This document shows positions 47,587-62,994 of a stretch of 64,000 nucleotides of DNA, in pieces; the stretch's first letter is position 1, and the number at the start of each line of letters is the position of its first letter. The DNA comes from Candidatus Peregrinibacteria bacterium (GTDB lineage Bacteria > Patescibacteriota > Gracilibacteria > Peribacterales > Peribacteraceae), in the NCBI GenBank assembly GCA_018648865.1, contig JABGQH010000014.1, forward strand, positions 1-64,000, written 5' to 3'. The position numbers and the translations under genes are program-made. The notes under the pieces are model-generated. The model was given only the letters and a program-made list of their open reading frames with translations, had not been told where the DNA came from and searched no databases.

Positions 47587-50571
47587 ATGGTAAGTACAAA
47601 AAAGGAAAATCCTCCCAATTCCGTAGGCAGAACAACAACTGAGTTCGAGAAACGTCTTTCTACTTTAAACAAAGAACAGTTACAGGCAGTACAAGAAATA
47701 GATGGCCCTGTAATGGTTATAGCTGGCCCTGGAACAGGTAAAACAGAGGTGCTTGGTATGAGGACAGCCAACATCTTAAAAAAGACACAGATGCGCCCTA
47801 GTAACATTTTGTGTCTTACATTTTCTAACACTGGTGCCAAGGCAATGCGCGAAAGGTTAAGAAAGATAATTGGTCCAGATGCCTACGGTGTAACAGTAAG
47901 TACGGTTCATAGTTTTTGTAACGAACTAATTCAGCAGAACCCTCAACTCTTTATTGATTTTCGAGCACTAGAGCAAGTAAGCAATTTAGATCAATTAAAA
48001 ATAGTTAGAAGGGCAATTAAAAACCTAGGATCTGGGTCCCCTCTTTATAATCCAGTTTCTGATCACGACAGATCAGCAGATGTATTAAGCAGAATTACAG
48101 AAATGAAAAAAGAGGGTTTACTTCCAGATGATTTAAAAGAATTCGTCAGTGATTACGCAGAGGAAATAAAAACCACTCCAACAGGCAGAGAGCGAGACTT
48201 GGAGTCTAAGTCTTATAAAGGTGATTTAAAAAAGGTACAACAGTTTAAGGACTTCATCACAATTTATGAAAAATATATTCAGGAACTAGCAGCAAGTAAC
48301 AGATACGACTTCGACGATATGGTTTTGGTGGTGTTAGATGCATTAAAAGAAAACGAATGGTTACTGCTTTCACTCCAAGAGCGATACCAATACATATTGG
48401 TAGATGAGTTCCAAGATCTAAACGGAGCGCAAAACAGAGTGTTAGATATGCTTACTTCGTATGTACACACAGATCTAACACCAAATATCTTTGCAGTAGG
48501 AGACGACGATCAAGCAATCTTCCGTTTCCAAGGTGCGAATATTGGGAACATGCAATCTTTTGTAAGTAGGTTTGTAGACACAAAAGTAATTACACTCACA
48601 ACTAATTACAGATCAACACAACCAATACTAGATGCGGCGTCAAATGTAATAGATGCAAACGAGGAGCGTTTAGTAAAAGTGTTAGAAGGTTTGAATAAAG
48701 ACCTAGTTTCAGCCAAAGCTGAAGAAGGTGAAATGCCTGAATTTATACGTTTTCCAGATACCAGTACGCAGTACGCAGGGATCGTAGATATTTTGCGCAA
48801 GGCAGAGAAGGGGAGTACGCCATGGAAAGAAATGGCAATAATATGTAGAAAGAACGAAGAGGTTCTAGAAATCTCTGATGTATTAAGTGCAGCAGGAATT
48901 CCAAATATTGTTACTGCAAAGCAGGATCTAACTCAACATCCTCAAGTTTTGCAAACTGTCACTCTACTGCGTTCTATTTTGGAGCCTACAAATTCTGTAG
49001 AATTATCTGGAGCAATAGCATTACCTTGTTTTAATTGTCATCCAGCAGATTTAGGCAGGCTTTGGATCGCATTCCGCTCACATAATAGAGAGCAAAAGAA
49101 AATGAGTTTGCACGAATATATTTTGGAAACAGAGACTCTGCCCCAAAGCATAAAAGATGCTAATGAATTTATTATTAGTAAACACAACAGCATCCCAAGT
49201 ACAACAATAACAGCACTAGTTGCAGAAACCCTTACAGAATCAAATCTACTACCTCCAGAAGATGCAGAAGTTGCAGACCCACGGGCAATTGCTGGGATAC
49301 ACGCGTTTTATGAATACGTTAAAAGCAGATGTTACGAGGTTAAATCTTTAACACTCAGAATCCTGCTATCAGACATAGATGAATACCTAGCAGAGCCACG
49401 ACTTAAGCTTCAGTACGATCTACCTCATCTAGTTCAAGATGGAGTACAACTAATGACAGCCCACGGCGCAAAGGGATTAGAGTTTGATCTAGTTGTTATG
49501 ATGAATGTTTGGTTCCGTAACTGGGGAAACAGAAATAGGGGATCAACTTTGTCTTTACCGGATCACCTAATAATGGATCTAGATAAAGAAGTAGAAAAAA
49601 GAGCAGGGCAAGAGGACGAAAGACGCCTCTTCTTCGTCGCAATGACTCGTGCACGGTCCAAGCTGTTCCTAACTTTCCCAGAAACATACAGATCTAGTGA
49701 ACAGATGAAACAAGCACAAGTGAGTACATTCGTTGCAGAAGCAGCAGAGAAGGTGAATGAGATAGTGCTAACACAAGAGCAATTACCACAACCAATAGAA
49801 ACATTGCGAATGCCAGAACTAAAAATAGACGAAGCGTTTAAAGCATTCCTACTAGAACGCCTAAAGGATTATGAATTATCTGTAACTGCACTTAATGCTT
49901 TCTTAAGTGAAGATAACGGTCCACAAAAGTTTCTTTGGGAACAGCTCTTGCAGAAACCAAGTGATAAAAAGGCAGCCATGGCTTTTGGAACCGCGGTTCA
50001 TGGAGCTTTGGAGGATAGAAATTTCTCTTGGCAAGAGGGCAAGGAATATAAAACAGACAAATTAGTAGAAGGATTTTTGAAACACTTAGAAAAAGAAATC
50101 CTTACAGATGAGGAACGTGAACATTACAAAAGTAAGGGAGGTGAGATAGTGCGAAAATATGGAGATGAAACTTCCACAGGAATTCCTCTAGTACTCTCTA
50201 CCGAACGAACAATTCACGCAGTAGTAGATGATGTACCAATTAAAGGAAAAGTAGATCGTATAGATCTATTTGAACCCCGTGGACGCAAGTGCAGAGTGCT
50301 AGACTACAAAACTGGTAATACTTGTCGTACAGAGGATGCAGTACGTAAGAAAGAAGGCTTATTCCGTCAGTTAGTTTTCTACAAAATGCTTTGTGATTCA
50401 GATCCTAAGTTTATTCACGATGCCACACTATTCACCCTAGATTTTATTGGTAAAGAAGATCAAACCAGAAGAGAGATAGATGTAGAGATTACTCAGCAAG
50501 AAGTAGAAGACCTCAAGGTTTTAATCAAAGAGGTTTGGGGAAAGATTCAGAGGTTGGAGTTTGGGGGGTAA
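47587..50571 (+). CDS. UvrD/PcrA-type helicase fused to a PD-(D/E)XK nuclease
   Basis: 994 residues. Superfamily 1A helicase motifs: I GPGTGKTEVL (residue 46), II ILVDEFQDLN near 270, III GDDDQAIFRFQGA near 300, IV TTNYRSTQPI, V TAHGAKGLEFDLVVM near 622 and VI FFVAMTRARSKLFLTFP. The C-terminal 250 residues hold a RecB/Cas4-like nuclease: FGTAVHGALED, then KGKVDRIDLFE and VLDYKTG as the D...D-x-K core. This layout matches AddA/AdnB-like repair helicase-nucleases. It probably works in break or excision repair. It lies at the edge of the restriction island, convergent with it by 1 bp. Confidence 0.93.
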   Translation: MVSTKKENPPNSVGRTTTEFEKRLSTLNKEQLQAVQEIDGPVMVIAGPGTGKTEVLGMRTANILKKTQMRPSNILCLTFSNTGAKAMRERLRKIIGPDAYGVTVSTVHSFCNELIQQNPQLFIDFRALEQVSNLDQLKIVRRAIKNLGSGSPLYNPVSDHDRSADVLSRITEMKKEGLLPDDLKEFVSDYAEEIKTTPTGRERDLESKSYKGDLKKVQQFKDFITIYEKYIQELAASNRYDFDDMVLVVLDALKENEWLLLSLQERYQYILVDEFQDLNGAQNRVLDMLTSYVHTDLTPNIFAVGDDDQAIFRFQGANIGNMQSFVSRFVDTKVITLTTNYRSTQPILDAASNVIDANEERLVKVLEGLNKDLVSAKAEEGEMPEFIRFPDTSTQYAGIVDILRKAEKGSTPWKEMAIICRKNEEVLEISDVLSAAGIPNIVTAKQDLTQHPQVLQTVTLLRSILEPTNSVELSGAIALPCFNCHPADLGRLWIAFRSHNREQKKMSLHEYILETETLPQSIKDANEFIISKHNSIPSTTITALVAETLTESNLLPPEDAEVADPRAIAGIHAFYEYVKSRCYEVKSLTLRILLSDIDEYLAEPRLKLQYDLPHLVQDGVQLMTAHGAKGLEFDLVVMMNVWFRNWGNRNRGSTLSLPDHLIMDLDKEVEKRAGQEDERRLFFVAMTRARSKLFLTFPETYRSSEQMKQAQVSTFVAEAAEKVNEIVLTQEQLPQPIETLRMPELKIDEAFKAFLLERLKDYELSVTALNAFLSEDNGPQKFLWEQLLQKPSDKKAAMAFGTAVHGALEDRNFSWQEGKEYKTDKLVEGFLKHLEKEILTDEEREHYKSKGGEIVRKYGDETSTGIPLVLSTERTIHAVVDDVPIKGKVDRIDLFEPRGRKCRVLDYKTGNTCRTEDAVRKKEGLFRQLVFYKMLCDSDPKFIHDATLFTLDFIGKEDQTRREIDVEITQQEVEDLKVLIKEVWGKIQRLEFGG

Positions 50572-51051
50572 TTAAAGAATAATAATTAGATAACCAAGTG
50601 ATAAAATTCCGCCTGTGAATGATATTCTAGTCAATTTAGAATATAGCTTTCGTTTATTATTTGCTTTCTTTTGTTTTAAAATCGCTATTTTGTGTTTTTC
50701 TGAACCGCTGCCATCCCACATCATATCTGCTTTTGATGCAAACCTACGAGATAAGTTAACTAATTCGTAGCCTGCATGATAGTTTCTACGAATAGCTGTA
50801 ACTATAGTTGCAATAAAGAAAAAAGCAGTAAAATAAAAGAAAAAAGCTTTTTGTCCTTGCAGATCTAATCCATTGCCAATTACCTCTGTTTTTATAGAAA
50901 ATAAAAAGCCAAGTGCAACAGAGGATATAGTTATTAATTGGTTATATGAGGTTAATCCTAATCCAACCCCTTGCTCGAAGAATTTATTTGCTGCTGAATA
51001 TCTTCGATTCGTTTCGATTATTTTGCCCTCAAGGGAATAGTTGTTATTCAT
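50572..51051 (-). CDS. Hypothetical membrane protein (SLATT-like layout), last gene of the restriction operon
   Basis: 159 residues. Hydrophobic segments at about 40-55, 70-90 and 140-158, with an Arg/Lys-rich cytoplasmic segment between the last two (KHKIAILKQKKANNKRKLYSK). The pattern (amphipathic N-terminal helix, helical hairpin, charged region) resembles SLATT membrane proteins linked to effector systems, but no firm match is claimed. It is 59 bp downstream of the 51111 gene on the same strand, so it may belong to the restriction-modification operon. Alternatives: unrelated membrane protein. Confidence 0.55.
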   Translation of the reverse strand: MNNNYSLEGKIIETNRRYSAANKFFEQGVGLGLTSYNQLITISSVALGFLFSIKTEVIGNGLDLQGQKAFFFYFTAFFFIATIVTAIRRNYHAGYELVNLSRRFASKADMMWDGSGSEKHKIAILKQKKANNKRKLYSKLTRISFTGGILSLGYLIIIL

Positions 51052-51110
51052 ATTAATATGTTAGTTAAGTTTAATATACTATGTAAGATAAATATTTCTA
51101 AATTAAATTA

Positions 51111-51794
51111 TTAAGTTCTTGGAAAATACTTTTTTAGTTTTCCATTATTAAAATCAGCTTCACACAGAAACTCACTTACGAGTCTCGTATCTACAAAAGA
51201 CTCTTTCTTTTCCTCAGGCTCAATCTCACCTTTCCATTTTGAAGCCAATACGTCGTTTATTGGGCACATTCTACTCTGAAACTCTTGCAGAACCATTAAA
51301 TAGTCATCTATTCGTTCCTCGATATTTTCTTCAATATTTCCGTTTGCATGGGCATATGAACTTCTAATTTTTACTAATTCAATTGCCTTTAGGATTGTTT
51401 CTTCTCCAGCCCCAACTATTCTCATAAAACTAAATAAATTCTTCTCAGGTATAAAGCTTAAGTTTCTAACTGAAGACGCTCCTAAAACATTTCCGTGGAT
51501 ATCGGGAATAGGTGGGTTAAGCTGCAATACTTCTTTGTGGCCTTCATCATATAACCAGCAAGTGCTAAGAGTAGTTAAATACTGTTTTTTATCGTAGGCA
51601 CTTATTCTGTGTACTTTGTATTGCACCGCGAACATGAATAGCAAGTGGAAAGGGAGTATCGAAAATGCACTTATAGGCTCGTCTGTGCTCATAAGTATTT
51701 CAAATGCACCCCAAAGATGTTTGATGTAACTGGTCTCTGCACCAGCTTCAATGGGTAGATAATCAGTTAACTCATAGGATTGTTCATAAAACAT
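51111..51794 (-). CDS. Hypothetical protein embedded in the restriction-modification operon
   Basis: 227 residues, not recognised. Predominantly helical, no signal peptide or membrane helix. Features include an N-terminal MFYEQSYELTDYLP, a Trp/Tyr-rich middle (TLSTCWLYDEGHKEVLQL) and an Arg/His-containing IRSSYAHANGNIEENIEERIDDYL near residue 140, reminiscent of the HEPN-like R...H pattern, though this is a weak hint. It lies 10 bp after hsdMS, so it is almost certainly co-transcribed with the type I system and may be an accessory or immunity factor. Confidence 0.6.
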   Translation of the reverse strand: MFYEQSYELTDYLPIEAGAETSYIKHLWGAFEILMSTDEPISAFSILPFHLLFMFAVQYKVHRISAYDKKQYLTTLSTCWLYDEGHKEVLQLNPPIPDIHGNVLGASSVRNLSFIPEKNLFSFMRIVGAGEETILKAIELVKIRSSYAHANGNIEENIEERIDDYLMVLQEFQSRMCPINDVLASKWKGEIEPEEKKESFVDTRLVSEFLCEADFNNGKLKKYFPRT

Positions 51795-51804
51795 AATTTA
51801 AACG

Positions 51805-54309
51805 TTATTCTTCCCATAGCTTAGAAATTACCTTCCTAGTTTTCTCTTCATAAATCCCAATCAATTCTTTAGCTGATTCTACTAGAGCACGTTCAACTTC
51901 AATTCTGTCTACAATTAGCTTTTGAATTTTAAGAGGTGGAAGGGGTATTATAAAATTAATTAAACTTTTTGTATTTATACTAGTAACATTTGCTCGGTTG
52001 CAGACCAAGAGAATGGATTCCCTAAAACTATCCATTCTTAACAAGTAATTAAGAAACATTGAATTAACATCTGAGTTAGGTGTTAATCTTAAAATATTAT
52101 CACCGTATACAACATTGGTGTTTCCTGAGTTGTAAACAGAGGAAAATGCGGCACCCTGTTCTTTTAGCGAAACTCGAACAAATAAAAGATCACCGGTATT
52201 AAGATATTTTCCTTGATAGTTCTGTTTTTTTACAAAAGGTAAAGAGTTTACATCTATCTCATAGCCCTGATACAAATCGTAGATATTGACGAATTTAATT
52301 TTGCCTTCGGTAACTATATCTTTTTTAGTAATTGAAACCCCACTTTGAATTTTATTTTTTGAAATGTCTCCCAGCGCTACCTTCTTCCACTCAGGATCAA
52401 TATCAATCTTTGGCTTCCAGTTTTCTACTATCTTTCTGGCTCCATCGATGATGCCAGAATATCCATCCAGCTCTGCCACAATTTGCTCTTGGAATTCGAG
52501 GGGCGGAAGAGGGATTTTATATTTTTCTACGACACTTTTTCTAATTGAAGGCAATGCAGCATCGTTTGCCAAGTCACTTAAATCAATTCCCAACATTAAA
52601 TAATAAAGATACATGAGTAATATTTTCTTCTCAGGCAGAAGGCCCATAACATTGTTATCAAATGCAGATTCCCTTTTTAAAACTCTCTTCTTATTTGTTG
52701 CAATTGCAGCACCAATTTTTGGGAAAATTACTGTTCCTGACTGATAGCTCTTTGCTTTCAATTTTTTTAAAGTAGCTCTACTGACAGAATTATTATAATT
52801 AATCATATTAATCTCATTCCCTGGCAAATTCATATCACTAACCTTTAAAAAGGGGATTTCTTCATTTAACAATCCTTGTGATTCCCTAGGAAAGCCAAAA
52901 CCACTAACAACTTTACATACTAATCCTAATTCCATCATTGGCCATTTAGAATTGCTGTAATCAGTTGTCACTTGATAATGACCACTTGAAAGATTGTAAT
53001 CGCCACTTTTTTCAATTTCATCTTTCTCAACATAAGATGAAAATCTGTTATCGTCTTTTACTCCATTTCGCCATTTATTCAAAATTTCGAGCACATTTGG
53101 TAAATCATTCTTGGTAATTGGACGTCTATTAGCACTTACATCAAATCCATCATTTTTAATCTTCACGAACAAGATCTCGCTACCTTGTTTGGCTAACTCA
53201 TGATCAAAAAAAAGAATGCTTGTTTTTACTCCACTATATGGCTGGAAAACGCCACTTGGGAGACTAGCAACAGCGTAGAGTCCATCATTCACAAGATTCT
53301 TGCGTAGCTGCTTATGCGCGCTTCCTGACTGGAAAATAATTCCATCGGGAACAATGACAGCAGCACGACCTTTCGGGCGCAGGTGGTTCATTATGTAGTC
53401 CACAAACAACACTTCACTACGGCTCGATTGTACGCTAAATTTACTATGAGGCTTTACGCCTCCTTTTGGTGACATAAATGGTGGATTCGCAAGTATCACA
53501 TCGAATTTATCTTTCCATCTCTCTTCCATAGAGAGCGTGTCATATTGGTAGATTTTTGGATTCTTGAACTGATGCAAATACATATTTACCTGAGCAATTC
53601 TCTGCATCCCTGGATCAATATCGTATCCTTCAAAGTTCTGGATAAGTTTATTTCTGTCATCTGGGGTTAGTGGCTTTTCGTTGTTTGGCTTGCCTTCTTC
53701 ATCTCTACCATCATGTTGCTCTAAAATGTGCTTGTAGGAACTAACAAGGAAGCCACCAGTACCGCAGGCCGGATCGAGTACCTTGTCATCTTTGGTAGGG
53801 TTTATTACATCCACCATAAAATCTATGATATGCCGAGGAGTTCGAAACTGACCCGCATCTCCCTGAGAGGACATTATAGAAAGCAAGTATTCGTATGCAT
53901 TACCAAGTTCTTCTGGATGGGAATAATCAAAATGAGCTATTTCTTTAAGGAACAAGCCCAATACTTCTGGCGATCGATATGGCAAAAATGCAGATTTAAA
54001 TATTGATCGGAATAGCTCTGGCAATTGCTTTGCCTGAGAAAACTGAACCAATGCTTCTGAATACAAATTCATTCTCTCTTGATTACCAAGACGTGTATCC
54101 ATTAATCGGGTCCAGGCATATTTCTCAATATCACCAATGAAAAATGATGGCTCATCACCCTGTTTTATTGCTGCTTGATCCATATCATCCATAAATTTAT
54201 AGATGAGTGCATTGGTAATCTGATCAATTTGAGATGTTGGATTCGGCACTACACCGACTAGCACTTGTCTGGCTGCATCTATATGACGTTTCGTTTCAGA
54301 TGTTAACAT
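51805..54309 (-). CDS. hsdM: Type I restriction-modification: methyltransferase fused to specificity subunit (HsdM-HsdS)
   Basis: 834 residues in one frame. The HsdM part (about 1-455) has the AdoMet-binding motif I DPACGTGGF near residue 180 and the catalytic motif IV NPPF near 277, for N6-adenine methylation. From about residue 460, an HsdS part with two target-recognition domains follows. TRD1 begins WPMMELGLVCKV and TRD2 near 645 (WKKVALGDISKN), each ending in IPLPPLEFQEQIVAELD-like or IPLPPLKIQKLIV helices. Separate M and S genes are usual, so this is a single-chain version. HsdR lies 3 bp upstream; the complex would methylate or restrict a bipartite site. Confidence 0.93.
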   Translation of the reverse strand: MLTSETKRHIDAARQVLVGVVPNPTSQIDQITNALIYKFMDDMDQAAIKQGDEPSFFIGDIEKYAWTRLMDTRLGNQERMNLYSEALVQFSQAKQLPELFRSIFKSAFLPYRSPEVLGLFLKEIAHFDYSHPEELGNAYEYLLSIMSSQGDAGQFRTPRHIIDFMVDVINPTKDDKVLDPACGTGGFLVSSYKHILEQHDGRDEEGKPNNEKPLTPDDRNKLIQNFEGYDIDPGMQRIAQVNMYLHQFKNPKIYQYDTLSMEERWKDKFDVILANPPFMSPKGGVKPHSKFSVQSSRSEVLFVDYIMNHLRPKGRAAVIVPDGIIFQSGSAHKQLRKNLVNDGLYAVASLPSGVFQPYSGVKTSILFFDHELAKQGSEILFVKIKNDGFDVSANRRPITKNDLPNVLEILNKWRNGVKDDNRFSSYVEKDEIEKSGDYNLSSGHYQVTTDYSNSKWPMMELGLVCKVVSGFGFPRESQGLLNEEIPFLKVSDMNLPGNEINMINYNNSVSRATLKKLKAKSYQSGTVIFPKIGAAIATNKKRVLKRESAFDNNVMGLLPEKKILLMYLYYLMLGIDLSDLANDAALPSIRKSVVEKYKIPLPPLEFQEQIVAELDGYSGIIDGARKIVENWKPKIDIDPEWKKVALGDISKNKIQSGVSITKKDIVTEGKIKFVNIYDLYQGYEIDVNSLPFVKKQNYQGKYLNTGDLLFVRVSLKEQGAAFSSVYNSGNTNVVYGDNILRLTPNSDVNSMFLNYLLRMDSFRESILLVCNRANVTSINTKSLINFIIPLPPLKIQKLIVDRIEVERALVESAKELIGIYEEKTRKVISKLWEE

Positions 54310-54312
54310 AAT

Positions 54313-56904
54313 TTAATTCATGAAAGTATTAAGTGATATATAGTCTTTTATATATCTAGGAACAATTTCTTTATATCCATTTAGCTGTTGGTATTCGTCG
54401 AAATGAAAAGACGATTCAGTATTAAATCGTGCTGTCTGTCTAGTTTCCATAATATCTCTAACATCTTTATCAGTAACATAGGCTTTAAAGAACATTTTTA
54501 CAGGTGCAAAATGTTCTTGATCTACGTCATGGACTTCTTGGAATTTACTCCATTCAGACTCTAGCAAATCGTCTTTCATTTCAAAGGCATCTTTCTCACC
54601 AAAGGCAACTTGTAGTAATTCTATAACACTAATTCTACGGTCTACTTTGAATGCGCGTCGGACTTTATCAAGATTAAGGAAATTCTTTGGCTTATCAATA
54701 ATATATTTCTTAACAAAATCTACAGCCTCCAAAGTATCACCATTCACCCACATTGTTTTGAGTGTCTCATTACCCAAAATATCCTCTTCTACAGCTCTTA
54801 TAAAGCCTTCGCGATCAATACGCATGCATTCTGCACCAATAGGTGTTTCTACGACAGTTTCAATCTGATCAGATTCATCCAGATCAAATGGGCCTTTGAA
54901 AATCTTATTTACATTCTCATCTACAAATTCACCTTGTGCTATTTGATTATCTCCAACTTCATTTTGAGTTTTTATTTGTTTTATATGAGGCAACTTGATT
55001 TTTTCATCGTATTTGAATTCATTCTCAAAATATTCACAAGTTGCAAAGAAATCAAAAAACTTAAAATGTTTTTTTTCAGCGGTAATATCACCAAATACTT
55101 CATAGTCTTCATGCTCGAATAGATATTTACGTGTACCTCTACCCTTGATTTGTACAAAATCAGAAGGACTAAAGAGTGGTCTCATTAATGCAAGATTCAA
55201 TATATCTGGACAATCATAGCCAGTAGTCATCATTCCAACAGTTACCGTAACTCTAGTTTTACTACTGTCATATCCCTCCGGATTTTTAGTTTTACCATTT
55301 AATGTATTATTAGAAAAATTTATTGTCATTTGCTGTGCGTCCTGAACAGAAGAAGTTACTTGTACGGCGAAGTCAGACTCATTGTATTGATCTGGCCATT
55401 TTTGAAAGGCAAGTTTATTTAAAATATTTGTTACCTTTGCTGCATGTCTTTGAGAAACACAAAAAACTATTGATTTACCAAACAGATCTATATCAATTTG
55501 CTTAGCAACTTGATCATATAGTGCATTATCCATAAAGGCTTTGCACATTGCTATATTTGTCTCTTCATTAAAGAATTTTCTTTCAAAATGACGCTGGCTG
55601 TATACCATATTGACTTCTTCACCATCATCATTAGTTATATGAACCGAGTAACCTTCGTCTGATAGGAGCTGAGTTGTGATCTCTGTTCGTGCATCGACAA
55701 TAACAGGGTTAATCAAATATGGACCTCCACTTTTGGTGCTGGTTCCATCTAGTAAGCTATATCTAAATGTAGGCTCTCCTGATTCACAACCAAATGTTTT
55801 ATAGGTATCTAATAGCAGCCTTCTTTCAAATTCTCTTTGAGAATCAGCACTTTCTCCATTAAGACCTTTTAAATAGTCTTTTGGTGTGGCAGTTAAACCA
55901 AGTTTATATCCAATAAAATATTCAAATACTGCACGGCTATTTCCGCCAATTGAGCGATGTGCTTCATCAGAAATCACTAGTTCAAAATCTGTTGGCGAAA
56001 ACTCTTTTTTATAACGATCGCCAGCAAGAAACGTTTGAATAGTAGAAACAACTACCTGTGCATTTTGCCATGAATCTTTTGCCTCCTTATAAATAACTGT
56101 TGTGTAGTCTTTACCGAGATAGCTCCTAAATGCTTTTAATGCCTGATCTTCTAATTCTAATCTATCTACTAGAAATAGAATTCTACGTGCATTTCCAGAT
56201 TTTAGAAAAAGTTTTAGAACAGCCGCTGAAATAAGTGTTTTACCTGTCCCAGTAGCCATCTCGAACAAAAATCTATTTTGTGCATTTAAGGCTGACGATT
56301 GCAGGCTTTTGATTGCTTCTATTTGATAAGGTCGTAATTGTTTTAAGTTATTATTTTTTAGATATTCCATTTTAGTTCTGTCTTCCTGAAATAAAGGATC
56401 ATTCGCAAATCCAGGCATTTGTGTTTCAATTATATAGTTTTCATCAACTTTAGTATCTGCAAGTTCTTTTGCATTAGGTTCCCATTTTTCAAATTGTGAA
56501 ATGGACTCTTGCGTAGGGAATCTTGAGATTGTTTCTGGATTACCATGTTTGGTATCCCAGAAGTAATGAATATTTCCGTTTGATAGAATAATAAATCGAG
56601 CATTTATATTTCGTGCATAGTTCCGTGCCTGTTCTTTTGCTGATAGCGGATCTATGGATTCCTTCTTTGCCTCAACTACTACAAGTGCACGTCCATCTTT
56701 GTCTAGAAGTAAAAAATCTATAGCACCACGACGTTTATCGTGTGTTTCAGCATCTTCAAAATCATCACCTAAATTCTCGAATTTTACATCTGCCTCAAGT
56801 CGTATATTGGCTTTTTCTGAACCAGAGTCTTCAAAACGCCACTGCGACTCTTCAAGTAACTTGTTTATCTTTATACGTGCCTGTGCTTCGTTATTCTTGG
56901 CCAT
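54313..56904 (-). CDS. hsdR: Type I restriction endonuclease R subunit (HsdR, EcoEI-like)
   Basis: 863 residues. The N-terminal nuclease domain has the PD-(D/E)XK core IDFLLLD...VVVEAKKE near residues 62-80. An SF2 helicase follows: motif I MATGTGKTLISAAV near 215, motif II SDEAHRSIGG near 312, motif III GLTATP, and motif VI QIKGRGTRKYLF near 590. The EcoEI_R C-terminal domain (about 700-860) is present. It cuts unmethylated DNA after ATP-driven translocation, together with the HsdMS product. It is spaced 3 bp from both neighbours' boundaries, so the operon order is nuclease, hsdR, hsdMS. Confidence 0.95.
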   Translation of the reverse strand: MAKNNEAQARIKINKLLEESQWRFEDSGSEKANIRLEADVKFENLGDDFEDAETHDKRRGAIDFLLLDKDGRALVVVEAKKESIDPLSAKEQARNYARNINARFIILSNGNIHYFWDTKHGNPETISRFPTQESISQFEKWEPNAKELADTKVDENYIIETQMPGFANDPLFQEDRTKMEYLKNNNLKQLRPYQIEAIKSLQSSALNAQNRFLFEMATGTGKTLISAAVLKLFLKSGNARRILFLVDRLELEDQALKAFRSYLGKDYTTVIYKEAKDSWQNAQVVVSTIQTFLAGDRYKKEFSPTDFELVISDEAHRSIGGNSRAVFEYFIGYKLGLTATPKDYLKGLNGESADSQREFERRLLLDTYKTFGCESGEPTFRYSLLDGTSTKSGGPYLINPVIVDARTEITTQLLSDEGYSVHITNDDGEEVNMVYSQRHFERKFFNEETNIAMCKAFMDNALYDQVAKQIDIDLFGKSIVFCVSQRHAAKVTNILNKLAFQKWPDQYNESDFAVQVTSSVQDAQQMTINFSNNTLNGKTKNPEGYDSSKTRVTVTVGMMTTGYDCPDILNLALMRPLFSPSDFVQIKGRGTRKYLFEHEDYEVFGDITAEKKHFKFFDFFATCEYFENEFKYDEKIKLPHIKQIKTQNEVGDNQIAQGEFVDENVNKIFKGPFDLDESDQIETVVETPIGAECMRIDREGFIRAVEEDILGNETLKTMWVNGDTLEAVDFVKKYIIDKPKNFLNLDKVRRAFKVDRRISVIELLQVAFGEKDAFEMKDDLLESEWSKFQEVHDVDQEHFAPVKMFFKAYVTDKDVRDIMETRQTARFNTESSFHFDEYQQLNGYKEIVPRYIKDYISLNTFMN

Positions 56905-56906
56905 AA

Positions 56907-57845
56907 TTATGATTGTAGATCAAATGTAATCGAATAGGTTTTTAATGAAACTTTTTCTGAAACTTCTTTTACTGCATATTCAAGTTTTTGGTCCTTTTCT
57001 CCAACAATTATAAGCCCACGTACTTCTTGCTTATCTTTTGCTAGATTATTTCTTACCCATCCCATATATCTCAGGACTTGACCAACTACAGCATCAGACT
57101 TCTTTCCTTGTTTTAGTTCAATTACTACAAAATTATTTTCTGCGTCTTGTGCCAATATATCTATCGTACCTGCATCACTAGTTGCGTATTGATTTCCAAT
57201 TTGTCCACTTTCGTCTTCATATATTGATAAATCTTCGCCAAAATCAATTTTATCCCAATTATTCACTATAAAATTTTCAAGATATTTCTCAAATGCAAAC
57301 TCCATCTCATGCTCAGGAATATCTGTTCTATCCTCATTTATTGATCTTTTAGCAACTACCTTGCCAGCCAATAATGTTTCAACTTCTTCAAACAGATGCA
57401 CTCCGCCTCTGCAGAATGTTGTAAAGGATCCAAGTGTATTTCTTGATTGCTGAGAGAATTCATCTCTTTGTACTTCTTTAATCCATTCAACGCGTCGTAC
57501 ATGTACATACTTTTCATCAAAATCATCATCTCTTTCTAGGGTGTTGTCAGAGAACCTTCCAATTTTTACTATGGAATCTCCCGAAACTGGTAGCGCAACT
57601 AGCTCACCTTCTTTTGCAACTTCAGCGAACCGAAAAAGCTGCCCTGCATTCATACGGTTTGAATTTTCAGGCATGCCGATATCTCTTAGGGCGTCTTTAA
57701 TTGCATCTCTATCGTGCAGTTCTGGCAAATTTACTTCACTCCAGCCTATTGCGACTTTTCCACTATTTACTTTGTCATGTAGCTTATCGTTATTGCGTAG
57801 TTCACTCATGTGAATAATCCAAACTTGTTTATCTTGTTCTTGCAT
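56907..57845 (-). CDS. NucS/DUF91-like PD-(D/E)XK nuclease, first gene of the restriction operon
   Basis: 312 residues. The C-terminal half carries a NucS/DUF91-type nuclease core: AGTIDILAQD...FVVIELKQGK near residues 225-250, with the acidic and Lys catalytic residues, then VVGQVLRYMGWVRNNL. The N-terminal half (1-165) has VWIIHMSELRNN and GKVAIGWSEVNL, resembling modules that precede Mrr-like nucleases. It may be a second, modification-dependent or single-strand-dependent nuclease. It starts 6 bp after TATCCT and is 2 bp from hsdR, so it heads the operon. Not a standard component of type I systems. Confidence 0.8.
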   Translation of the reverse strand: MQEQDKQVWIIHMSELRNNDKLHDKVNSGKVAIGWSEVNLPELHDRDAIKDALRDIGMPENSNRMNAGQLFRFAEVAKEGELVALPVSGDSIVKIGRFSDNTLERDDDFDEKYVHVRRVEWIKEVQRDEFSQQSRNTLGSFTTFCRGGVHLFEEVETLLAGKVVAKRSINEDRTDIPEHEMEFAFEKYLENFIVNNWDKIDFGEDLSIYEDESGQIGNQYATSDAGTIDILAQDAENNFVVIELKQGKKSDAVVGQVLRYMGWVRNNLAKDKQEVRGLIIVGEKDQKLEYAVKEVSEKVSLKTYSITFDLQS

Positions 57846-57851
57846 GCAGAA

Positions 57852-57880
57852 AGGATAGATTCAATTGATCAATACATCAA
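57852..57880 (-). promoter_or_regulatory. Promoter of the restriction-modification operon with palindromic operator
   Basis: Minus strand TTGATG (57875-57880), a 17-bp spacer, and TATCCT (57852-57857), leaderless. A perfect 10-bp palindrome ATTGATCAAT (57864-57873) lies in the spacer, the expected place for a controller or repressor. Confidence 0.6.
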
Positions 57881-57894
57881 ATCAACCATTCCAC

Positions 57895-57913
57895 ACTACA
57901 ACCACAAAACATT
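57895..57913 (+). repeat. Third copy of the ACTACAACCACAAAACATT element
   Basis: A 19-bp exact match to the start of the duplicated upstream regions at 58564 and 60612. It lies between the restriction promoter and the stop of the membrane protein gene at 57930. Confidence 0.8.
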
Positions 57914-57929
57914 CATTAAAATTTAGATA

Positions 57930-58496
57930 TTACCGTAACAGCTTATTTATCTTGCTTGAATACCGAGGTATTACGTGATTCCAAGCAATAGCTACTATTG
58001 TTCCGATGATAGCACCAGCAACAACTATGAACAGAATACTGATCAATAATGCTAATGATATGTATATGTAGTATTCAGATGGCATGCTTTGTAGGCTTGG
58101 ATCTTTCATAATATTTACTATTGTCGCAAGTTTAACTTCTCCCCATTCCATGCATGGTGTAGATAGTGTGCACAGCTGGCCAAACATCTTTGCTCCAGGT
58201 AATCCTGGTATAGAGTCACCAAGAAAAAATAATACTATTTGTGATTTTGTAATTGAGAAAAGAATCATTGATATAAGCACTGCGAGCCAATAGGGAACAT
58301 AAAAAATAACTGCACAAATAGAACCAGTCTTCCATCCAGAAAACTTCCATCCACGCTTGTCATACAAAAATAGAAAAAGGAAGTACAAAGCAGTGATGAT
58401 TGCCAGATACATTGGTAATATCTTTCCAAAAAGAAGAGCAATAACCAGAATAGTGATCAGTGCTAGTGTTGAGTCCTTATTAAGTTTATTAAACAT
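57930..58496 (-). CDS. Hypothetical polytopic membrane protein
   Basis: 188 residues, not recognised. About five hydrophobic segments, including two near the N-terminus (LALITILVIALLFG, LAIITALYFLFLFLY), one or two centrally (SICAVIFYVPYWLAVLISMILF) and one near the C-terminus (LALLISILFIVVAGAIIG). A short Cys-containing loop (CTLSTPCMEW) lies between. It sits between the restriction operon and the duplicated module, divergent from the plus-strand gene at 58636, with the 19-bp shared element in both flanking gaps. Confidence 0.6.
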   Translation of the reverse strand: MFNKLNKDSTLALITILVIALLFGKILPMYLAIITALYFLFLFLYDKRGWKFSGWKTGSICAVIFYVPYWLAVLISMILFSITKSQIVLFFLGDSIPGLPGAKMFGQLCTLSTPCMEWGEVKLATIVNIMKDPSLQSMPSEYYIYISLALLISILFIVVAGAIIGTIVAIAWNHVIPRYSSKINKLLR

Positions 58497-58562
58497 GATT
58501 AAACCTTACTATTAATTGGAAGCTGCGACAATAATATTTAATCAATCAGAAGAATAGCAATA

Positions 58563-58659
58563 TACTACAACCACAAAACATTTTCTTGTATTTGTATATT
58601 AAAGGAGTAGCATTTTTTTAAATCTAATAATAACTATGCACAAACCAGAAGCAGAAGCA
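58563..58659 (+). repeat. Duplicated upstream region of the paralog module, copy 1 (with promoter)
   Basis: Identical to 60611-60707 at 96 of 97 positions, including the first codons of the gene. It contains ACTACAACCACAAAACATT (58564-58582), then TTGTAT (58586-58591), a 16-bp spacer and TAGCAT (58608-58613) as a promoter. An AAAGGAG just upstream of the -10 is not positioned as a ribosome-binding site. Confidence 0.9.
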
Positions 58660-59391
58660 TGCGATAGGCTTGTAGAAATTACAGAAGTCCAGATAGAAAG
58701 GCTTCGTTGGGGCACTCCTATTCACCTAGGAGGGGAGTATGACTTTGATTTAATCAGAGAAAGAATAAAGGGAATACTAGGAGTTAGGCCAGACCTAGAA
58801 GAAAAACTAGACGAATTATCTGTTAAATTAGAAGCAATAGATCCTAGTTTATCTGATAGAGAAGAATTCTATGAGAGAAAGAGGAATGAGCCGATAGAAA
58901 AGGCCTATATCAACTTTTATGAATTAAAAGGAATGGTAGATAGATTAGTAGGATATGAGTTATTTGATGGAGATAGAGCTGATGAATATTTTGATGCAAG
59001 GCATAAGATAAGCACTTACAAGGTTAAATTTAAAATATTAATACCAGAGTTAGAGGAACTAGAAACCAAGTTAGACGAACTAGAATTAGATGAAGAAGAA
59101 ATGAGGAAATTACTACATAGGAAGCTTGAAAGAGAATCTAAAGCTGCTGAAAGACAAAGAGAACTTGAAAGGTTGGAAAAAATAGAAGCAGCCGCAAGGC
59201 AATTGAGAGAAAATCCTTTATACCAAAAGCTACTAGCTCAAGAAGAAGAGGTATTAAGAATAAGAAGATTTAAAGATGAATGTAACGAACCTTTTCAGTC
59301 AAAGGGTCAGGAATCTTTTGATTTTTCAGCTGATCCAAAATGGCCCTACCCAGAAGGGGATAGTGGTGGTTGGGGCGGGGATGAAGAATAA
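58636..59391 (+). CDS. Unknown helical protein, duplicated-module paralog A
   Basis: 251 residues, not recognised. N-terminal half is strongly conserved with the paralog at 60684: HKP.AEA.DRLVEI..VQIERLRWGTPI, LE.KLD.IDP, and FYELKG.VD..LGY. The Arg-rich WGTP element and regularly spaced Leu/Glu suggest a helical bundle. The C-terminal 100 residues are extra here: a highly charged coiled coil (RKLERESKAAERQRELERLEKIE) and an acidic, Trp/Gly-rich end (GWGGDEE). The ending ESFDF resembles HQSLFEF in the paralog. No signal peptide or membrane helix. Its promoter and start are exact copies of the paralog's, implying recent duplication or co-regulation. Confidence 0.7.
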   Translation: MHKPEAEACDRLVEITEVQIERLRWGTPIHLGGEYDFDLIRERIKGILGVRPDLEEKLDELSVKLEAIDPSLSDREEFYERKRNEPIEKAYINFYELKGMVDRLVGYELFDGDRADEYFDARHKISTYKVKFKILIPELEELETKLDELELDEEEMRKLLHRKLERESKAAERQRELERLEKIEAAARQLRENPLYQKLLAQEEEVLRIRRFKDECNEPFQSKGQESFDFSADPKWPYPEGDSGGWGGDEE

Positions 59392-59411
59392 ACATTAAAA
59401 ACTGAATAGAA

Positions 59412-59480
59412 TCAAATATGTCAAAACTGCATAGAAAACATGTATTGGTTTAAGTAAACAGTCTAGAAAGGCAATCAAAA
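59412..59480 (+). repeat. Duplicated downstream region, copy 1
   Basis: About 70 bp after paralog A matches 61328-61396 after paralog B, including ATGTCAAAACTG.ATAGAAAACATG and AAACAGTCTAGAAAG. So the duplicated unit included the gene, its promoter and its downstream region. Confidence 0.75.
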
Positions 59481-59557
59481 ACTATTAAGGTATTCAGGCG
59501 AATACTTGAATAGTGTAGTAAGTAAATAAGGCGTTTAATTGGAATTGTAGTACTAAT
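59481..59557. other. AT-rich spacer before nested palindrome
   Basis: No gene or terminator recognised. Part of the 330-bp gene-free stretch 59392-59721, which otherwise holds the downstream repeat, the nested palindrome and a hairpin. Confidence 0.5.
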
Positions 59558-59636
59558 AAGTTTGTTGGCATCTATTAACCGAATGTATACAAACTCTAGA
59601 GTTTGTATACATCTTAATCGCAACGCCAACAAACTT
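59558..59636. repeat. Nested palindrome: 12-bp outer and 30-bp inner inverted repeats
   Basis: Outer arms AAGTTTGTTGGC (59558-59569) and GCCAACAAACTT (59625-59636) enclose a perfect 30-bp palindrome at 59583-59612 (ATGTATACAAACTC and its complement around TA). The inner element contains AAACTC/GAGTTT related to the outer AAGTTTG. The element is 79 bp, MITE-sized, and could extrude a cruciform. Confidence 0.85.
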
Positions 59637-59647
59637 AATGGAATCTA

Positions 59648-59672
59648 GAAAATTCGGAAATTCCGAATTTTC
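59648..59672. terminator. Hairpin GAAAATTCGG/CCGAATTTTC, possible terminator
   Basis: A perfect 10-bp stem around a 5-nt loop with an A-rich 5' and T-rich 3' arm. It lies 49 bp past the stop codon of the minus-strand small membrane gene at 59722, but the T-run is internal to the stem, so efficiency is uncertain. Confidence 0.5.
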
Positions 59673-59721
59673 TCATTTCTCCTTCAATGAAACCCCGTAT
59701 GAAGCGTAAGCTGTAGGAGCT

Positions 59722-59997
59722 TTATGTAAGCCGTGAGAGGGCGAATCCCGCAATACCACCAACAACAAATACAATCGCAAACCTCCATAAATACATCCAA
59801 CCAATTTGCAAACGAGTTCTAATACATTTTTGCTCTTCTTGTTTTGCTTCTGCAAGTGTCTTGCGTGCAATAGCTTCCATTTGCATTGCATGTGCTGCTC
59901 TTTGGGCATCATCCATATTCATAATATATGGTTGTGCTCCGGTTAATTCAGGCCAGCTACGCTGCTGATTGTTGTTCTGAGTTGGCTGTTGTGTCAT
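59722..59997 (-). CDS. Small tail-anchored membrane protein downstream of ImmA-like peptidase
   Basis: 91 residues. The first 30 are Gln/Asn/Pro-rich (TQQPTQNNNQQRSWPELTG). An amphipathic Ala/Glu-rich helix with many Gln, Lys and Glu follows (about 32-62), and one C-terminal membrane helix (WRFAIVFVVGGIAGFALSRL). Its start overlaps the ImmA-like gene by 41 bp, so the two are translationally linked. Unknown function; a membrane-anchored partner or target of the peptidase is plausible. Confidence 0.65.
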   Translation of the reverse strand: MTQQPTQNNNQQRSWPELTGAQPYIMNMDDAQRAAHAMQMEAIARKTLAEAKQEEQKCIRTRLQIGWMYLWRFAIVFVVGGIAGFALSRLT

Positions 59998-60541
59998 ATC
60001 CTAAGTTTCGTAATCGGGTATCCATGGCAAATGTAGATACGCCAAATTGACGCGCCATATCTTGGATAGTTTTTGTTGTGATTTGATCAGTTGCGATACT
60101 ATTTCGCACTTCTTGTTCTGGCATAATTAAATTTCCTGCAAATTCATTAGCTTCTAGTTCTTGTTCCATGTATTTCATAGTTTCATCTCTTGCTATAAAT
60201 TGCCCGTCGATAAATTCATTTCTTTCATCTTTATGAATGAAATAGTGGCCTAGTTCATGAGCGACAGTAAAAAGCTTACGCTGCTCTGAGTCTTGTTTAT
60301 TCACATAGATCTTCCATGAGCCTCCTTCTTTTCGGAGAGCTCCAGAAATATCGTATAGATCAGCTTCTAGTAACTCTATTCCATTTGCATCTGCAATAGA
60401 TGAGATGCGTTCAAATGGGTTTTTAACATGTCCGTGCTCCTTTAACGTAGTATTCGCTTCATTCTTTATCTCTGTAAGCCTTTCCGTAGAGAGTAATGTA
60501 TTCATATTTTTAAATAGGAGATTAATTTGATTTTGATTCAT
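59957..60541 (-). CDS. ImmA/IrrE family metallopeptidase
   Basis: 194 residues. The zinc-metallopeptidase motif is VAHELGHYFIHKDE near residue 90 (HExxH), with a likely third ligand Glu in MEQELEANEFAGNLIMP. ImmA/IrrE peptidases cleave repressors, such as ImmR of ICEBs1 or DdrO of Deinococcus, on stress or damage. No HTH repressor is fused or adjacent, so the target is not evident. It overlaps the small membrane gene and is divergent from the duplicated promoter region at 60611. It could control the paralog module (inference). Confidence 0.88.
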   Translation of the reverse strand: MNQNQINLLFKNMNTLLSTERLTEIKNEANTTLKEHGHVKNPFERISSIADANGIELLEADLYDISGALRKEGGSWKIYVNKQDSEQRKLFTVAHELGHYFIHKDERNEFIDGQFIARDETMKYMEQELEANEFAGNLIMPEQEVRNSIATDQITTKTIQDMARQFGVSTFAMDTRLRNLGYDTTANSEQQSAA

Positions 60542-60610
60542 GAATGTTATTAATGCAATGGCCTAGTCCCGAAAAAGTACTAAGAGAGGTACATTTTCTA
60601 TGGTTAAAAA

Positions 60611-60707
60611 TACTACAACCACAAAACATTTTCTTGTATTTGTATATTAAAGGAGTAGCATTTTTTTAAATCTAATAATAACTATGCACAAACCAGTAGC
60701 AGAAGCA
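60611..60707 (+). repeat. Duplicated upstream region of the paralog module, copy 2 (with promoter)
   Basis: Second copy of 58563-58659, offset exactly 2048 bp. It includes the 19-bp element (60612-60630), TTGTAT (60634-60639), a 16-bp spacer, TAGCAT (60656-60661) and the start codon at 60684. Confidence 0.9.
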
Positions 60708-61253
60708 TCCGACAGGCTAGTAGAAATATTGGGAGTCCAAATAGAAAGACTTCGTTGGGGTACGCCAATCGATAAAGGAGGGGAGAGTGATATAAGACTT
60801 GTAAGAGAAAAGATAGAAGCTTTATTAATCTATAGAGAAGATCTAGAGCCAGAATTAAAAGTATTACTAGAAAAGCTAGATACAATAGATCCAGGTGCAT
60901 CTAATATAGAAGAGTTTATTGAACGTAAAGGAAATAAACTAAGCGAAAGAGTTTATATATATTTTTATGAATTGAAAGGTAGGGTAGATAAAATCCTAGG
61001 TTATGGCACATTCGATGAAGATAGAAAATTAGAATTAATTAATGCTAGAGCAGATATAAAATTTTATATAAGTATATTTAAATGCATGAAACAAGAACTA
61101 GAGGAATTGGATGCTAAGTTAGATGCAATAGATCCCAATATTTCTATTGGGGCAGATGAAATTAAAAAAGCGTCACCGCCTAAGCATCAATCCCTTTTTG
61201 AATTTATGGATGAGTCATTACCAGATGGAGGTAGTGCTATTGGGGTGGGATAA
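60684..61253 (+). CDS. Unknown helical protein, duplicated-module paralog B
   Basis: 189 residues, paralogous to the 58636 gene (see shared motifs there) but without its C-terminal coiled coil. It retains an internal repeat of LE.LDAKLDAIDP (near residue 140) that mirrors the LEKLDTIDP earlier in the protein, so the fold may contain two similar helical units. The C-terminus HQSLFEFMDESLPDGG is a short acidic tail. No catalytic motif, signal or membrane segment. Same start and promoter as paralog A. Function unknown; the context (restriction operon, ImmA, NYN ribonuclease) suggests defence or regulation. Confidence 0.7.
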   Translation: MHKPVAEASDRLVEILGVQIERLRWGTPIDKGGESDIRLVREKIEALLIYREDLEPELKVLLEKLDTIDPGASNIEEFIERKGNKLSERVYIYFYELKGRVDKILGYGTFDEDRKLELINARADIKFYISIFKCMKQELEELDAKLDAIDPNISIGADEIKKASPPKHQSLFEFMDESLPDGGSAIGVG

Positions 61254-61560
61254 TTGGAAATAATACAAATATAATGAAGACTGAACAAAAAAGTTATACA
61301 ATTAATTACATAAAAAATAATCAGAATAGAATATGTCAAAACTGTATAGAAAACATGCTTTGTATTAAGAAAACAGTCTAGAAAGACATCTAAAAAGTAT
61401 TAAACCTTTCAATTGAAAGGTTGAAAGGTATCACGTATTAAGAATTAAGTATTATGCGATATTTACTCAGATTCACTTAGTATGTATTTGATCAATTTTA
61501 ATAACATTGTTACAATAGATTTACAATATGAAAAGAGTCCTCTCAGGATATTTATGCCTG
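61254..61560. other. Gene-free stretch with downstream module repeat and a 16-bp palindrome
   Basis: Contains the second copy of the module's downstream repeat (61328-61396) and a perfect 16-bp palindrome CCTTTCAATTGAAAGG (61405-61420). The rest is AT-rich with no gene seen. Confidence 0.6.
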
Positions 61561-61572
61561 TCAGGGGTCTTT
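61529..61572 (-). terminator. Imperfect hairpin overlapping the NYN gene stop codon
   Basis: Minus strand AAAAGACCCCTGACAGG pairs imperfectly with CCTGAGAGGACTCTTTT around an AT loop. It includes the stop codon and ends in a T-run, so it is probably the gene's terminator. Confidence 0.6.
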
Positions 61573-62055
61573 TCTAATATGAGGAACAAGACGAGTTGCT
61601 TCCAGATAAACAGTGGAGAGATTACGTTTACGAAGCAAATAAGAAGTGTATGCAATATTAGGTGCAATAAGGCGATGGAATGCATTTCTTTCACAAAGAA
61701 AATCGATCAAACATGCGAAATCACCATCGCCAGTAACAAGGATTGCTTTATTTAACTTCTGTTCGTAGTAGTCACTTACTACCTGCAAAACCATCTCTGC
61801 ATCACAGTTCCCTTTGGGCTTGCCTAAATGTGTAGTGACTTCTTTGAAGATTAAATCATATCCAATAGCAGTTAAATTATTATAGAGCGGTTGATGCTTG
61901 GGAATATGACCAAGAAAGATGTATGCGCGTTCCATTTTATATTTAGCCTTTAGCCAACGATAAAATTTTTCATAATCTAAATTCCATCCTAGATTTTGGA
62001 TACCTTTGTGTAAATTGGCTCCATCAATATATGCCAGATTATATTTTTCATCCAT
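61561..62055 (-). CDS. NYN-domain (LabA/DUF88) putative ribonuclease
   Basis: 164 residues. The PIN-like NYN core is recognisable: an N-terminal YIDGANLHKG with the first catalytic Asp, NCDAEMVLQVVSDYY near residue 88, and VTGDGDFACLIDFLCE near 108. The acidic residues would form a metal-binding RNase centre. NYN proteins process or degrade RNA. The ATG giving MDEKYNLAYIDGANL is used; an in-frame TTG 36 bp upstream lies in the promoter (TTGATA with TATACC or TACCCT). It is near the duplicated module but on the opposite strand. Confidence 0.88.
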   Translation of the reverse strand: MDEKYNLAYIDGANLHKGIQNLGWNLDYEKFYRWLKAKYKMERAYIFLGHIPKHQPLYNNLTAIGYDLIFKEVTTHLGKPKGNCDAEMVLQVVSDYYEQKLNKAILVTGDGDFACLIDFLCERNAFHRLIAPNIAYTSYLLRKRNLSTVYLEATRLVPHIRKDP

Positions 62056-62125
62056 GTATATGAGGGTATACCTCTGTACACCTACTATCAAGTGTCATTT
62101 AGAATGACGTATTTTGTGATATTTA

Positions 62126-62350
62126 TTAAGAATCTTCTAAGGTAGTTCGAAGTTCAAACCCATTTTCATTAGCAATTTCTATAACATGATCTTTTTTACT
62201 TTCACTTACTTTTGTAGCTATATTTCTGCCACAAAGCACACAGTTTAATTTAAGTATTGTTGCTAGTTCTACAAGCGCTAAAGCTGGATATTCAAATGCT
62301 TCTTCATGGTATGTAAATTCTAAACCGATAAATTCATTATTAGATTTCAT
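62126..62350 (-). CDS. Hypothetical protein, 74 aa
   Basis: Not recognised. A short acidic protein with a helix (ALALVELATILKL) and a CVLCGRN motif near residue 38 that could bind zinc with other residues, then a Lys/Glu-rich end. It starts ATG after AT-rich sequence (TATATATGAA...), typical of leaderless genes here. It lies between rdgB and the NYN gene on the same strand, with gaps of 50 and 70 bp, so it may be co-transcribed with them. Confidence 0.5.
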   Translation of the reverse strand: MKSNNEFIGLEFTYHEEAFEYPALALVELATILKLNCVLCGRNIATKVSESKKDHVIEIANENGFELRTTLEDS

Positions 62351-62400
62351 ATATATATTAAATTATGATTACTAATATCTGTCAAAAATAAGCATAAGTT

Positions 62401-62994
62401 TTAAACAATCAAATGCGAACGCAGTGCTGCTACTGCTTTTCCTCTGTGACTTATGGCATTCTTTTCCTCCACTGACATAGCGCTATAAACTTGGTTAAAT
62501 CCATCTGGACGGAAACATGCAGAGATTGGTAAACCGGGTAGATAGTCTGCTTCTAATTCTTCTGTAATAGATCCTTCGCACACTCCCTCAAAAGTATGTG
62601 GCAAACCCTCATCATCAATAAATGCCAAGTTGCATACGAATCTGGCTTTACGGTTTTTTTCTTTTTGCATTCTCTTTAAAAAATAGTCTATCCATTCTGC
62701 GTCACTTGCATCTGCTCCGGCGCCCCAGCGCCTAGTGTGAATACCAAGTTCACCTGCGATAGCATCTATTAGGATTCCAGAATCGTCTGCGACTGTTGGT
62801 ACTTTGCCAAGCTCGTAGTAATAGATAGCTTTTTGCATGGCGTTTGCTGCAAAGGTATCCCCTGTTTCATCTGGAGGAGGATCACTAAAACCAATAGAAG
62901 ATGGAGTAATAATTTCGTGAGGTATACCAATAAGAGACTCAGAGATCTCTGTAATCTTTCCTTTATTAGATGTTGCTATAAGTAGTGGTCTCAT
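62401..62994 (-). CDS. rdgB: RdgB/HAM1 family non-canonical purine NTP pyrophosphatase
   Basis: Hydrolyses dITP, XTP and related nucleotides to keep them out of DNA and RNA. 197 residues, standard length. Family motifs: ATSNKGKITEI near the start, SFDPPP-like FSDPPPDETGDTFAANAMQKA near 45, VADDSGILIDA near 68, HTRRWGA near 85, FEGVCEGSI near 140 and the basic SHRGKAVAAL near 184. Its ATG overlaps the ftsK stop codon (ATGA at 62991-62994), so it is translationally coupled to ftsK. Confidence 0.95.
   Translation of the reverse strand: MRPLLIATSNKGKITEISESLIGIPHEIITPSSIGFSDPPPDETGDTFAANAMQKAIYYYELGKVPTVADDSGILIDAIAGELGIHTRRWGAGADASDAEWIDYFLKRMQKEKNRKARFVCNLAFIDDEGLPHTFEGVCEGSITEELEADYLPGLPISACFRPDGFNQVYSAMSVEEKNAISHRGKAVAALRSHLIV

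Follow-up and report, generated by a model that had tools for sequence, protein, structure and literature searches.

A putative accessory islet in a Candidatus Peregrinibacteria genome with an anciently duplicated orphan gene, near-identical control blocks and an ImmA/IrrE gene pair

The window analysed here is a 64,000-nucleotide stretch of contig JABGQH010000014.1 from a Candidatus Peregrinibacteria bacterium (GCA_018648865.1). The size of the genome and its gene content point to a member of the candidate phyla radiation. Towards the right end of the window, a UvrD-like helicase gene and rdgB/Ham1 enclose a type I restriction-modification system, with HsdM, HsdS and HsdR all present, followed by a candidate defence protein, a membrane protein, two orphan genes (A and B) on either side of an ImmA/IrrE metallopeptidase gene, and an NYN-domain gene (Table 1). 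The membrane protein next to gene A has no relative within the family genomes. The NYN gene, which is close to a PADLOC NYN profile, occurs in 30 of 74 family genomes in varied neighbourhoods, and this scatter ruled it out as a synteny anchor.

Table 1. Features of the UvrD-rdgB interval, in window coordinates
Feature	Position	Strand	Description or basis
UvrD-like helicase	47587-50571	+	Left flank of islet
Inserted accessory islet	50572-62400		11.8 kb; UvrD-rdgB comparison with relatives
HsdM-HsdS fusion	51805-54309	-	Pfam and PADLOC
HsdR	54313-56904	-	Pfam and PADLOC
PDC-S02-like PD-(D/E)XK protein	56907-57845	-	Pfam and PADLOC
Third exact copy of 19-nt core	57895-57913	+	ACTACAACCACAAAACATT
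Membrane protein	57930-58496	-	Four hydrophobic peaks
Control block, copy 1	58562-58648	+	87 nt; exact repeat of copy 2
Orphan gene A	58636-59391	+	251 aa, acidic
Downstream repeat, copy 1	59396-59510	+	Contains hairpin
Nested inverted repeat	59557-59637		81 nt; between convergent genes; single copy in genome
Membrane-anchored partner	59722-59997	-	C-terminal hydrophobic segment; overlaps ImmA gene, downstream of it
ImmA/IrrE metallopeptidase	59957-60541	-	HELGH motif; Peptidase_M78 profile
Control block, copy 2	60610-60696	+	87 nt; exact repeat of copy 1
Orphan gene B	60684-61253	+	189 aa, acidic, all-helical, internally repeated
Downstream repeat, copy 2	61311-61425	+	Hairpin at 61403-61422
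NYN-domain protein	61561-62091	-	Patchy in family
rdgB/Ham1	62401-62994	-	Right flank of islet

Comparison with relatives places the whole region in a wider setting. UvrD and rdgB are convergent neighbours in 23 of 29 related loci, with stop codons 7-1272 bp apart. Among these 23, the gap is 502 and 360 bp in the two genomes with the closest UvrD sequences (G051 and G058, 71-75% identity) and 71 bp in G027, the sole congener. Four other relatives carry unrelated small cargo at this site, none of it recognisable as defence. Gene order across these loci shows a composite islet inserted between the helicase gene and rdgB, so the paralogs, the ImmA pair and the restriction genes are adjacent as cargo that arrived, or built up, at a single place. 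The original prediction correctly placed the paralogs next to a restriction operon, having missed that the entire region lies inside the islet. Type I restriction operons are found in defence islands, and here too HsdR and the HsdM-S fusion share their islet with a candidate defence protein (PDC-S02-like), but the orphan pair matches no defence profile. In another relative (G036, L095:5627-7520), three tandem and very similar ORFs of 173-195 aa with an N-terminal membrane segment lie between housekeeping genes.

The peptidase between the paralogs belongs to the ImmA/IrrE type, as first proposed. It matches Peptidase_M78 (PF06114) at E=2.6e-20, its HELGH motif is invariant across five homologs, and its best PADLOC profile is CapP (E=1.6e-34). 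Likewise borne out are the overlapping gene for a tail-anchored membrane protein and the nested palindrome, where the interval 59540-59690 has a folding z-score of -8.4. A 27-nt hairpin adjoins this inverted repeat (59557-59673). The same peptidase with an overlapping membrane-anchored gene occurs in four relatives (G029, G048, G025 and G045; 51-58% peptidase identity), where it stands among unrelated genes and neither the paralogs nor a restriction operon lies within the 7.5-12.5 kb examined. Because the pair is kept in these relatives without the paralogs, the membrane-anchored protein is the stable partner of the peptidase, and the two genes are best taken as a separate unit, distinct from the orphan genes. 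Several genera of the family conserve this pairing of an ImmA/IrrE gene with a short, overlapping gene for a membrane-anchored protein (loci L017, L018, L019 and L020).

Mechanistically, the peptidase resembles those of CapP-CapH, PprI(IrrE)-DdrO and ImmA-ImmR in its M78 profile, its HELGH motif and its top score to CapP, yet displays a different partnership. Those peptidases pair with a repressor, whereas this one pairs with a short membrane-anchored protein, and the repressor expected of a CapP-CapH system was not found, since no neighbouring or islet protein searched against profiles matched an HTH repressor. Repressor cleavage by CapP and PprI is stimulated by single-stranded DNA (PMC10904395). 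By analogy with CapP and PprI, the pair is probably a tethered, stress-triggered protease that would cleave a regulator under stress.

Genes A and B are offset by 2048 bp, the spacing originally reported, and their proteins are 58% identical across the first 147 residues. Over codons 5-147, the coding sequences differ at pS 0.65 and pN 0.27 (dS 1.54, dN 0.34); these values identify both as genuine coding genes under purifying selection and show that the divergence is ancient. Synonymous divergence varies along the pair, with dS of 0.86 in codons 5-33 and 1.9-2.1 further 3', a pattern expected from the tail of a conversion tract. The duplication continues beyond the stop codons, as had been proposed, in 115-nt downstream repeats that are 77% identical. 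Their hairpin is altered on both sides of the stem at three pairs between the copies.

Upstream of the genes, the picture is very different from that of the proteins, in agreement with the original prediction that the promoter and start regions are nearly identical and have diverged far less than the coding sequence. Between 58559-58635 and its counterpart 2048 bp on, 76 of 77 bases are equal, and an exact 87-nt run extends 13 nt into both coding sequences. Under the divergence seen at third codon positions of conserved residues (0.62 identity), so close an upstream match would have a probability of 5e-15. In both genes, a Shine-Dalgarno-like AAAGGAG stands about 28 nt 5' of the annotated ATG (58600-58636 and 60648-60684) and directly precedes an in-frame ATT (58612 and 60660); translation may start at these ATT codons, giving eight extra residues.

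Each control block contains the 19-nt core, and a third copy on the same strand was overlooked at first. These three copies are the only matches with two or fewer mismatches in the 1.13 Mb genome. In the 35 nt 3' of the third core, 20 positions equal the control block, a similarity that only 0.05% of window positions reach; GATATT takes the place of the block's TATATT. On the minus strand, the start codons at 57845, 58496 and 60541 each have the core 50-71 bp upstream. As it precedes these starts as well as A and B, the core could act for genes in both orientations.

AlphaFold models suggest that A and B share one all-helical domain (about residues 3-147) followed by a disordered C-terminal tail, with long, coiled-coil-like helices at 153-221 in A beyond its helical domain of 1-147; the models were built from two sequences and have pLDDT of 74 and 75 and pTM of 0.69 and 0.45. 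Both proteins are acidic, with a pI of 4.8. The shared domain seems to contain an internal duplication: when its first half in A is compared with its second half in B, the score exceeds all 1000 shuffles, and B against itself exceeds 999 of 1000, although A against itself is non-significant (131 of 1000 shuffles). A C-terminal Q-x-x-F-[DE]-F common to both proteins, reminiscent of clamp-binding peptides, was set aside as non-significant (117 of 2000 shuffles). The products are probably, though this is tentative, protein-binding accessory factors that are expressed together.

Profile, fold and genome searches agree with the original prediction that the paralogs belong to an unrecognised family. 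Neither protein matches a curated family in four family libraries. The best PADLOC score is LmuB for gene B (E=0.02, chance level), PHROG profiles give E of 0.03 or worse (also chance level), and PDB sequences give nothing better than E=0.036. Foldseek searches of PDB and BFVD with these moderate-quality models give no E value below 1.4. Searches with the single proteins and a two-sequence profile found no homologues in 74 family, 353 class and 380 sampled phylum genomes, nor in GTDB contigs, IMG/VR, phages and plasmids. One weak match in the congener (G027, E=8.5e-4) fell inside a YebC-like reading frame and disappeared with the profile search. Degenerate motif scans of viral contigs returned one null and ten chance matches, and Rfam one sub-threshold match. 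With the family in one genome only, the linkage of the paralogs to ImmA-like and restriction genes was seen once, which would be compatible with a conserved association or with none.

Collectively, the reading that we consider reasonably probable is a composite accessory islet with an old orphan-gene duplication, a control block that was recently copied or is strongly constrained, and an ImmA pair forming a separate unit. Inside the islet, the orphan gene, its promoter and its 3' region were duplicated together long ago; both copies have remained protein-coding under purifying selection, one of them with an extra coiled-coil-like segment. Recent conversion or copying of the 87-nt blocks would explain their identity, perhaps aided by selection for equal control. 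Conversion or copying is the most likely origin, a judgement made from one genome assembled in 23 contigs. The original prediction named gene conversion and selection for identical control as alternatives; both stay live, since a single genome does not tell them apart. Another origin for the identity would be an assembly artefact, in the form of a chimeric join or collapsed repeat, given the fragmented genome and a length of 87 nt that is near common assembler word lengths. It is very unlikely, since the two copies have flanks and genes that differ all along, their downstream repeats pair up too, and the region runs on into housekeeping genes at either end.

The remaining alternatives give the 19-nt core a function. 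The original prediction joined the paralogs and the peptidase in one damage- or phage-responsive system; in its explicit form, ImmA would cleave a repressor bound to the shared block, so that DNA damage or phage attack induces the two paralogs and possibly the restriction operon. The CapP match, the repressor cleavage known for CapP and PprI and the position of the core upstream of both paralogs and the three minus-strand starts fit this scheme, but the islet proteins searched include no recognisable HTH repressor, four relatives carry the ImmA pair without the paralogs, and the linkage was found once, which together make it unlikely. The core might also be a recombination or attachment site beside which modules were added, its copies marking module borders. 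All three copies do show similarity that sets in abruptly at the core's left edge, and the UvrD-rdgB junction of G027 contains ACTATAACCATAAAATATTC (L096:693-712), the best match in that genome, equal to the core at 16 of 19 bases and to the third copy at 17 of 20, and the sole such site there. This motif sits at the 3' end of rdgB, overlapping its stop codon, with three C-to-T differences, and a 19-mer match of this kind in a 100-nt junction has a chance of about 7e-5. It is only a lead, because it was spotted after the fact and, taken relative to rdgB, points the other way from the islet copies. Within the islet no integrase was found, and the core has neither inverted copies nor copies at the islet edges; on balance this origin is quite improbable. 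A transposon with terminal inverted repeats was rejected because inverted core copies are absent. A broader proposal is likewise doubtful: the core would be an islet-specific operator or recombination site that links the orphans, as a new effector class, with the ImmA pair, the membrane gene and the restriction operon in one jointly controlled or modularly built unit.

The congener brings a caveat to the islet comparison. Its sigma factor is 96% identical to the one here, while its UvrD is only 40% and its rdgB 60% identical, a pattern suggesting that the UvrD-rdgB stretch may have been replaced in one lineage, either that of G027 or the one studied here.

Returning to the favoured composite islet, its orphan genes resemble those lineage-specific paralog pairs whose control regions have been homogenised, having diverged coding sequences below a nearly identical upstream block; in the collections searched, the A/B family is confined to this genome. 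The region offers a clean example of an inserted islet with an orphan family that was duplicated long ago and whose control block is homogenised. The conserved ImmA and membrane-anchored pair looks like an undescribed form of stress protease module and may be a more general finding than the orphan duplication.
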